Below the pieces are notes generated by a model. It saw only the letters and a program-made list of their open reading frames with translations. It ran no database searches and had not been told where the DNA came from. This document shows, piece by piece, positions 34,215 to 36,438 of a stretch of DNA of 64,000 bases. The stretch covers positions 1 to 64,000 of the forward strand of contig NZ_JACCFY010000001.1 of assembly GCF_013410745.1 (NCBI RefSeq), written 5' to 3'. Within the stretch, counting starts at the first letter, position 1, and each line of letters starts with the position of its first letter. A program made the position numbers and the translations under genes. The stretch is from Nesterenkonia xinjiangensis (GTDB taxonomy: Bacteria; Actinomycetota; Actinomycetes; Actinomycetales; Micrococcaceae).

Positions 34215-35042
34215 TCAGGCTGCGGCCGTACGCCAGGACCGCAGGGCCTCCAGCAGGTCGCCTTCATCGCGGACCGGCTGATCGAAGGCGAGGAACGCCG
34301 TGCGCACCTGGCCGCCTTCGGCGACGAGCCATGTGCAGCCCTCGGTGTCCACGTCCAGCAGCAGGTGCCTCGGACCCTCGCCGCCACAGTGCGGCACGCC
34401 CGCCATGGGCCTTCCGAGGATGCCCCGCCGGGTCCCCTGAGCAAGGTCCTGGAGCAGAACCCCCACGGTGGAGCCGGCGAGGGCGGCCACCGAGTCGACG
34501 GCCTGCCACTCCTGTCCGACCCGCGGAAACGCCGCTGCCTGGGAGACTTCGCTCCAGGGCAGCTTCTCCACATCCTCACGGGCATGGACGAGCACGGAGC
34601 CGACCTCCGCCATCGCGAGGCATGATCCGGCGGCGCCTGCGGCGTCCCTGACCGGGTCCGAGACGGCATCGTCGGCGAGCAGGAGCTCCGCCTCGGACGC
34701 TGCGAGGGGCCGCAGGGTTCCCAGTGCGTGCAGGCTCGCCGTGTGCACACGGATCTCGGCCGGTGCGCCCAGCTGATCGACCTGGATCCGCACCTCAGTC
34801 TGCGTGTGAGCACTCAGCCCTGAGGCGTCGGCGAGGGCGAGCAGCCAGTCACCGGCGCCACTCACCCCGTGGGCCAGCACCTGCAGCTCCTGCTGCGGAT
34901 CCTGCCGATAGGCGACGACGCCGGCGGACCCGGCACCCTGTACCAGGCGGCGAGCCGTCGACTGCGCGCAGCGGCGACGCAGCCCTGCGCCGCCCACGAG
35001 ACGCGCGACATCACGAGCCGTCCCTGCCATCTCTCCCGCCAT
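34215..35042 (-). CDS. Conserved-looking hypothetical protein, 275 aa
   Basis: No family recognised. GAGGGAG precedes ATG 35042. The protein is soluble, with alternating beta-rich segments (GVVAYRQDPQQELQVLAHGV, TQTEVRIQVDQLGAPAEI, LLLDVDTEGCTWLV) and two alpha-rich stretches. It could be a split-barrel/DUF2470-like fold, judged only from strand pattern. It ends 43 bp from the convergent DUF1540 gene and begins next to the wrecked ligD/ku locus. Codon use is like its neighbours, so it is probably a real gene. Confidence 0.6.
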   Translation of the reverse strand: MAGEMAGTARDVARLVGGAGLRRRCAQSTARRLVQGAGSAGVVAYRQDPQQELQVLAHGVSGAGDWLLALADASGLSAHTQTEVRIQVDQLGAPAEIRVHTASLHALGTLRPLAASEAELLLADDAVSDPVRDAAGAAGSCLAMAEVGSVLVHAREDVEKLPWSEVSQAAAFPRVGQEWQAVDSVAALAGSTVGVLLQDLAQGTRRGILGRPMAGVPHCGGEGPRHLLLDVDTEGCTWLVAEGGQVRTAFLAFDQPVRDEGDLLEALRSWRTAAA

Positions 35043-35241: not shown

Positions 35242-35512
35242 TCATTCCCAGCGGACGTCATCGGGCGACTTGTCGAGCCGCAGACCACGCCAGACAGGCT
35301 GACGAAGGCGACCCTCACGAGTACGGCCTGAATGGCGCACCTCCCCCACCACCTTCGGGGTGGCCCACCGGACCTCATCGGTCGGCACGGGGAACGTCTC
35401 CGGTCGGCGGAGTCTTGCGTTCGATGCGCTCCAACCTCGACCGCAGCGACTCGAGCTCCGCGTCCGAGAAGCCGGTGCCCACGCGCCCGGCGCAGCGCAG
35501 AACGCCGTCGTC
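35242..35512 (-). pseudogene. ligD remnant: C-terminal end of an ATP-dependent DNA ligase (OB-fold part), frameshifted
   Basis: Minus-strand translation gives DDGVLRCAGRVGTGFSDAEL... and ERKTPPTGDVPRADR, then stop. In the next frame, VPTDEVRWATPKVVGEVRHS... and WRGLRLDKSPDDVRWE-stop. These match the final ~85 residues of LigD-type ligases (GRVGTGF, W-x2-P-x-LVGEV, WRGLRxDK). A frameshift lies near 35376-35384. Nothing of the adenylation, primase/polymerase or nuclease domains is present upstream. There the sequence changes directly into a plus-strand ku fragment at ~35505-35512. It is non-functional by any reading. Confidence 0.82.
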
Positions 35513-35818
35513 GACTACAAGGACATCAAGCGCGCCTACGAGGAGGACTCCGACACTGTCATCGTCACCCGGGAGGAGCTCGCGGGACTTCCCGTGGACG
35601 AGAGCCGGGAGATCACCGTCCAGCGGTTCGCCCCCGCCGAGCAGGCCGATCCGATGCTGCTGGACCGCAGCTACTCTCTCGAGCCGATCTCAAAGTCCCC
35701 CAAGGCCTACGTGCTGCAGACGATGCGATGGGCCGACGAGGTCCGCCAGCCCGTGGTGGAGGAGGACAAGGGCGCCGAGGTCATCAGCCTGATGGTGGCA
35801 CTGAAGAAGCCAGCCTGA
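35507..35818 (+). pseudogene. ku remnant: truncated, internally deleted DNA end-binding protein Ku
   Basis: The open frame VVDYKDIKRAYEEDSDTVIV...LAGLPVDESREI...DPMLLDRSYSLEP...SPKAYVL matches Ku residues ~45-120. It then jumps to LQTMRWADEVRQPV (normally ~60-70 residues later), and again to EDKGAEVISLMVALKK (the usual C-terminal tail). The N-terminal ~45 residues (MRAIWKGxI...) are missing; upstream sequence is antisense to ligD. About 100 codons remain of ~270-300. The frame is kept, but the core ring and bridge are lost, so a functional Ku is very unlikely. Confidence 0.82.
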
Positions 35819-35838: not shown

Positions 35839-36075
35839 ATGGCATCACGCGCATATGACGGACCGCAGAAGGACCCGGGGATCGCCCTGGTGCTGACCAT
35901 CGTGGGCTTCTTCTTCGTGGCCGGGCTGCAGTACTTCTACCTGGGCAAGATCCTCATGGGACTCCTGTTCCTGTTCACCTTGGGATTCCTCTACGTGGGC
36001 ACGGTGATCTCCCTGTTCACCATCCGAGGCGAGACCCGCAGGGTCAACTACCTGCGTGCCCGCGGGATGCGCTGA
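35839..36075 (+). CDS. Small membrane protein with TM2-like domain
   Basis: 78 aa with two hydrophobic helices (~15-36 and ~39-60). The pattern GLQYFYLGKILMGLLFLFTLGFLYVGT resembles the TM2 domain (aromatic/Gly-rich first helix, G-rich turn), and a basic tail follows. No Shine-Dalgarno; a -10 box is placed for leaderless expression. Function unknown. Confidence 0.75.
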   Translation: MASRAYDGPQKDPGIALVLTIVGFFFVAGLQYFYLGKILMGLLFLFTLGFLYVGTVISLFTIRGETRRVNYLRARGMR

Positions 36076-36125
36076 ACCACATCCCGCTCGCGGAGCAGCC
36101 TCGTGTGCGGCACGCCTGACCGGAC

Positions 36126-36150
36126 GGCTCAGAGAGGCCCTCTCTGAGCC
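36126..36150. terminator. Terminator after the TM2-like gene
   Basis: 11-bp perfect stem with a 3-nt loop (36126-36136 with 36140-36150), 50 bp beyond the stop. Confidence 0.55.
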
Positions 36151-36206
36151 TCTCCGGCCCGCTGAGCTGGTGAGATGAGGATCACGACCCCTGATCTCCC
36201 TCCGAG

Positions 36207-36236
36207 TTGGCGCAGCCTGAGACCCGATGCTAGAGT
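36207..36236 (+). promoter_or_regulatory. Promoter of tRNA-Lys
   Basis: TTGGCG, 18-bp spacer, TAGAGT; about 60 bp before the mature tRNA. Confidence 0.55.
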
Positions 36237-36295
36237 TTCATGTCGTTGCTCGGGTGACTGAGCAGCACATCGCGGAAGCGACAGCCTGCAGCCGA

Positions 36296-36368
36296 GGGCC
36301 TCTAGCTCAACTGGCAGAGCATCAGACTCTTAATCTGCAGGTTCCGGGTTCAAGTCCCGGGGGGCCCA
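36296..36368 (+). tRNA. tRNA-Lys (anticodon CTT)
   Basis: 73 nt. Acceptor GGGCCTC pairs with GGGGCCC (one G-U), discriminator A. Anticodon loop CTCTTAA and T arm GGTTCAAGTCC are present. Confidence 0.95.
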
Positions 36369-36398
36369 CTCTGACGAGTGCAGGCTGTCGCCTCCGTC

Positions 36399-36438
36399 CG
36401 ACGAGGGCCCGGCACCTACAGGTGCCGGGCCCTCGTCG
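36399..36438. terminator. Terminator after tRNA-Lys, 19-bp perfect stem
   Basis: Arms 36399-36417 and 36420-36438 are perfect reverse complements with a 2-nt spacer. The convergent hypothetical gene ends at 36517, so it may act both ways. Confidence 0.7.

Follow-up and report, generated by a model that had tools for sequence, protein, structure and literature searches.

The loss of non-homologous end joining (NHEJ) in bacteria has mostly been inferred from the presence and absence of its genes. The bacterial pathway is a two-component system of Ku and LigD, and many gains and losses of it have been inferred across bacteria (Sharda et al. 2020, PMC7719229). The Ku ring threads DNA ends and its C-terminal region recruits LigD, while in mycobacterial Ku the N-terminal residues line the DNA pore and drive synapsis (PMC12784962). 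Stand-alone primase-polymerases of the LigD-like type are also known, such as mycobacterial Prim-PolC (PMC5663958). In the genus considered here, the Nesterenkonia genus paper (PMC8875376) makes no mention of Ku or LigD.

The window analysed here is a stretch of 64,000 nucleotides from N. xinjiangensis, whose genome (G000) is assembled into a single contig of 3,569,370 bases with a completeness of 99.57%. It was compared within a set of 30 Nesterenkonia genomes, one per species, among them Nesterenkonia sp. PF2B19 (G001) and Nesterenkonia sp. F (G022). Positions 35242-35818 hold two gene remnants on opposite strands, ligD on the minus and ku on the plus strand, and these are very probably the wreck of a resident ligD-ku, that is, a dead NHEJ locus. 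That bacteria have repeatedly lost NHEJ was known before, and this locus is a well-documented new instance. The genes are the same as in the two-component system and are divergent in some intact relatives; while the losses in that survey were inferred from presence and absence (PMC7719229), the window shows physical remnants, and the orthologous site of its sister species has a second, different collapse product. Full-length ku-ligD pairs of Nesterenkonia (L061, L063) resemble the window in homology across the retained parts and in divergent orientation, but the window retains only about one third of ku and one tenth of ligD and has a different gene neighbourhood. The locus and its flanks comprise the following parts.

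34215..35042, minus strand: left flanking gene, 275 aa, with no match in a Pfam profile search; common to PF2B19 and Nesterenkonia sp. F, which fixes the site
35242..35394, minus strand: ligD 3' end in the post-frameshift frame, covering the ~50 final codons of the OB domain and ending in ...WRGLRLDKSPDDVRWE and a stop (PF04679 profile 57-94, E 1.6e-8)
35381..35512, minus strand: upstream part of the ligD OB-domain remnant, in the other frame, DDGVLRCAGRVGTGFSDAELESLRSRLERIERKTPP... (PF04679 profile 5-55, E 3.7e-11)
35507..35515, no strand: putative deletion junction GTCGTCGAC, partly from ligD minus-strand codons (GAC GAC) and partly from ku codons (GTC GAC)
35510..35710, plus strand: ku remnant block 1, starting at about residue 53-55 and belonging to the beta-barrel domain of Ku (PF02735, E 4e-12)
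35711..35716, plus strand: GTGCTG, probable scar of a 36-codon in-frame deletion
35711..35818, plus strand: ku remnant block 2 and 3' end by alignment with intact ku, VLQTMRWADEVRQP..., a second in-frame loss, then EVISLMVALKKPA and a stop
35839..36075, plus strand: right flanking gene, a TM2-domain protein (PF05154, E 1.3e-6), starting 20 bp past the ku stop

The ligD remnant consists of OB-domain sequence only, with nothing of the phosphoesterase region. In a whole-genome profile search the LigD-type OB domain (PF04679) was matched on the minus strand at 35381-35557 (E 1.8e-10) and, in a different frame, at 35269-35394 (E 1.3e-7), so that this C-terminal OB-fold domain of the ligase is covered in two frames and a frameshift of ligD lies within 35381-35394. 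Sequencing error could account for this single frameshift, not for the large deletions. The remnant ends at the ligD stop codon (35242-35244), and its upstream part (35381-35512) is 51-62% identical to the LigDs of the genus.

On the plus strand, the whole-genome search matched Ku (PF02735) at 35504-35713 (E 2.9e-9), and the fragment taken alone covers positions 48-121 of the 190 in the profile. Alignment with intact ku places the start of its 104-codon open stretch at about residue 53 of the full-length protein, and the natural 3' end is kept (stop codon 35816-35818). Two blocks are missing in frame, one of 36 codons at 35711 and one of roughly 55-66 codons around 35750-35776, the exact edge of the latter being uncertain. 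The remnant thus has neither a complete Ku ring domain nor a complete C-terminal arm: it is without residues 1 to ~52, 36 barrel residues and a further ~55-66, and most of the C-terminal region is gone. The amino acid identity of block 1 to 23 intact ku genes is 55%, compared with 82% among the intact genes. A sequence-only reading of this DNA had already recognised a minus-strand ligD remnant with a frameshift near 35380 and a plus-strand ku remnant with two further in-frame losses, all of which the profile matches and alignments bear out; its start of ku at about the 45th residue has to be moved to about the 53rd.

Searches of the whole genome found no other Ku, no other OB domain, no LigD Prim-Pol (PF21686) and no ATP-dependent ligase adenylation domain (PF01068), which leaves no hidden second copy of ku or ligD in the assembly. 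The genome is therefore without intact ku and ligD while relatives have intact copies. With an incomplete ku remnant and nothing but a portion of the OB domain left of ligD, this strain should be incapable of Ku/LigD end joining.

The most probable history begins with an ancestor in which the 275-aa gene and the TM2 gene would have flanked ligD (minus) and ku (plus), arranged divergently side by side. A deletion, probably at a short repeat and about 2.5 kb long as judged by intact relatives, would then have taken away three ligD domains (polymerase, phosphoesterase and adenylation), the promoter region and ku up to about codon 52. Homology of the DNA to intact ligD extends to 35513 and that to intact ku begins at 35507-35510; the PF04679 match that reaches 35557, opposite clear ku sequence, is probably a chance extension. 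The two remnants meet at the short repeat GTCGTC/GTCGAC, with CCGTCGTC present on this strand at the junction in six of ten distinct intact ligDs and GTCGAC at the matching codons in eight of the 23 intact ku genes. This arrangement fits a deletion at a short repeat. The meeting point had been read as a GTCGAC palindrome at 35505-35512; the junction is placed here at 35507-35515. Decay without selection would have followed, with two in-frame deletions in ku, one frameshift in ligD and many substitutions. For the first of the ku deletions, slippage at the GTGCTG repeat, which the sequence-only reading had pointed out at 35711-35716, is well supported, since GTGCTG stands at both ends of the 36-codon missing block in 12 of the 23 intact ku genes.

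That the main junction arose in one event, and before the other lesions, is what we infer from this pattern. Alternatively, the locus could have collapsed stepwise, for instance by separate truncations of ligD and ku, a variant compatible with the history above. The presence of at least four lesions and the long decay would suit such a course, but ligD and ku meet at one clean junction, whose microhomology matches the intact sequence on either side, and this makes it possible rather than probable. One deletion of ~2.5 kb is the simplest, if unproven, history of the junction. Of the earlier proposal that a single deletion removed the promoter, the ancestral divergence and the loss of the intervening sequence stand, and the single event remains its simplest form.

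Full-length ku occurs in 23 of the 30 genomes of the genus. At L063 and L061 a spacer of ~100 bp separates divergent ku and ligD, and in other genomes of the genus they lie kilobases to tens of kilobases apart. In the seven intact ku/ligD loci whose neighbours were examined, neither gene adjoins a TM2 gene. Since ku-ligD has other neighbours in these loci, the locus would have moved or been regained here at some point. Among the relatives compared, none carries an intact ligD-ku at exactly this site. The comparison of the locus across relatives thus yielded no intact version there, only a differently collapsed one. This is found in PF2B19, where the same flanking genes enclose an intact LigD Prim-Pol open reading frame and the last 16 LigD codons with the unusual ending DKSPDDVRWE before the stop, which differ from those of the window by one residue; searches of the site and of the genome found no ligase domain and no ku. 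Nesterenkonia sp. F has the same flanks with a short gap between them, and no NHEJ sequence was found at the flanked site or in searches for Prim-Pol and ATP-ligase domains. In a trigger-factor tree N. xinjiangensis and PF2B19 are sisters (SH-aLRT 92) and group with Nesterenkonia sp. F and G013 (SH-aLRT 80), neither of which has NHEJ. Both G013 and G014 (98-99% complete) are without Ku, LigD Prim-Pol and ATP-ligase domains; as G014 lies elsewhere in this tree, NHEJ was lost more than once in the genus.

The window keeps ligase and ku pieces and PF2B19 a polymerase piece, which implies that their common ancestor had all of these at the site. Reconstructed from the two complementary remnants, this ancestor would have carried a fuller ligD-ku locus here, and the complementarity itself suggests that the collapses were separate in each lineage. 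In PF2B19 the same ancestral locus would have decayed differently, with the LigD polymerase domain as the sole open gene left. Could a foreign partial ku-ligD fragment, already broken, have been inserted at the site instead? The gene neighbourhood here is not the one in which ku-ligD lies elsewhere in the genus, a tRNA-Lys gene is nearby, and Nesterenkonia sp. F has the flanks without NHEJ sequence, all of which such an insertion would explain. However, the different, complementary pieces in PF2B19 and the shared unusual LigD C-terminus point to a fuller locus in the common ancestor, the Prim-Pol domain of PF2B19 groups with the genus, and the ku remnant has LQTMRWADE in common with three other genomes of the genus (G011, G005, G029). 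Insertion of a broken fragment is thus very improbable.

The remains of the resident locus also carry information on the age of the loss. At 94 first- and second-position sites of ku block 1 that are invariant in the 23 intact ku genes, the remnant has changed at 21 (22%), while any intact gene in the same test has changed at 0-2; purifying selection on the coding frame is gone. The corrected distance of the ku remnant is ~0.27. Between N. xinjiangensis and PF2B19 the distance at four-fold sites of trigger factor, AbgT and TM2 genes is 0.48-0.65, or ~0.25-0.33 per branch, an approximate dating because at high genomic GC some constraint may act on four-fold sites. The remnant has thus accumulated about as much divergence as neutral change would over the entire branch after separation from PF2B19, the nearest relative, which suggests an approximate but old date for the loss of NHEJ at this locus. 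The recent loss proposed in the sequence-only reading is rejected on these grounds. In a simple neutral simulation the 104-codon ku frame stayed open with a chance of ~0.28, and together with the lost constraint this rejects the open frame as a sign of function. That the 152-aa frame (35360-35818), or its ku part, has been kept for a new function as a small protein, for example a truncated Ku-like protein that binds DNA, is barely credible: the frame runs open across the deletion scars and neither internal ku deletion shifts it, but constraint on the conserved sites is gone, neutral decay leaves such a frame open often enough, two deletions are both in frame by chance in 1/9 of cases, no relative keeps the frame and PF2B19 has lost ku entirely, and the N-terminal residues that serve the DNA pore and synapsis in mycobacterial Ku (PMC12784962) are absent from it.

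Decay of the resident locus has left a different product in PF2B19, where LigD (L058:6700-7650, plus strand; G001:C79) is reduced to a stand-alone domain covering the whole Prim-Pol profile. Mycobacterial Prim-PolC (PMC5663958) is comparable in that PF2B19, not the window, has a free-standing full-length Prim-Pol domain. The domain in PF2B19 differs in that it stems from loss of the rest of ligD, in that the genome is without an ATP-dependent ligase partner, and in that its SGSKG motif has alanine in place of a lysine that is invariant elsewhere. Of 101 residues that never vary in 29 other LigDs, 4 are changed in it, the SGSKG lysine among them, and so are 23 out of 346 conserved sites at first and second codon positions (6.6%); this exceeds the change in most intact genes but stays far below the 22% in the ku remnant of the window. 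An enzyme may have been retained here, or the gene may only be starting to decay. Perhaps the clade is dismantling NHEJ piecemeal, with the LigD polymerase of PF2B19 kept under selection as a gap-filling enzyme while Ku and ligase were discarded, though this seems unlikely.

For general biology the locus is an ordinary pseudogene case. The different leftovers of one locus in two sisters would nevertheless make the age and mechanism of a loss directly readable, here as short-repeat deletions and long decay, and the genus offers a small natural panel of related actinobacteria, some with NHEJ and some without it.

The TM2 gene has a nucleotide identity of 82-84% in PF2B19 and Nesterenkonia sp. 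F. The 275-aa protein shows 53-54% amino acid identity to their versions and occurs at this level only in these two, other genera of the family having more distant relatives; its gene is fast-evolving, with a four-fold distance of ~1.4 between the sisters. The TM2/tRNA-Lys region (35839-36370 in the window; L059:7300-14400) is a variable spot: in Nesterenkonia sp. F about 6 kb separates the TM2 gene from the next conserved gene, and the tRNA-Lys region is inverted. Directly 3' of tRNA-Lys in the window, positions 36399-36438 form a 40-base near-perfect palindrome (GAGGGCCCGGCACCTACAGGTGCCGGGCCCTC), perhaps a terminator-type hairpin.
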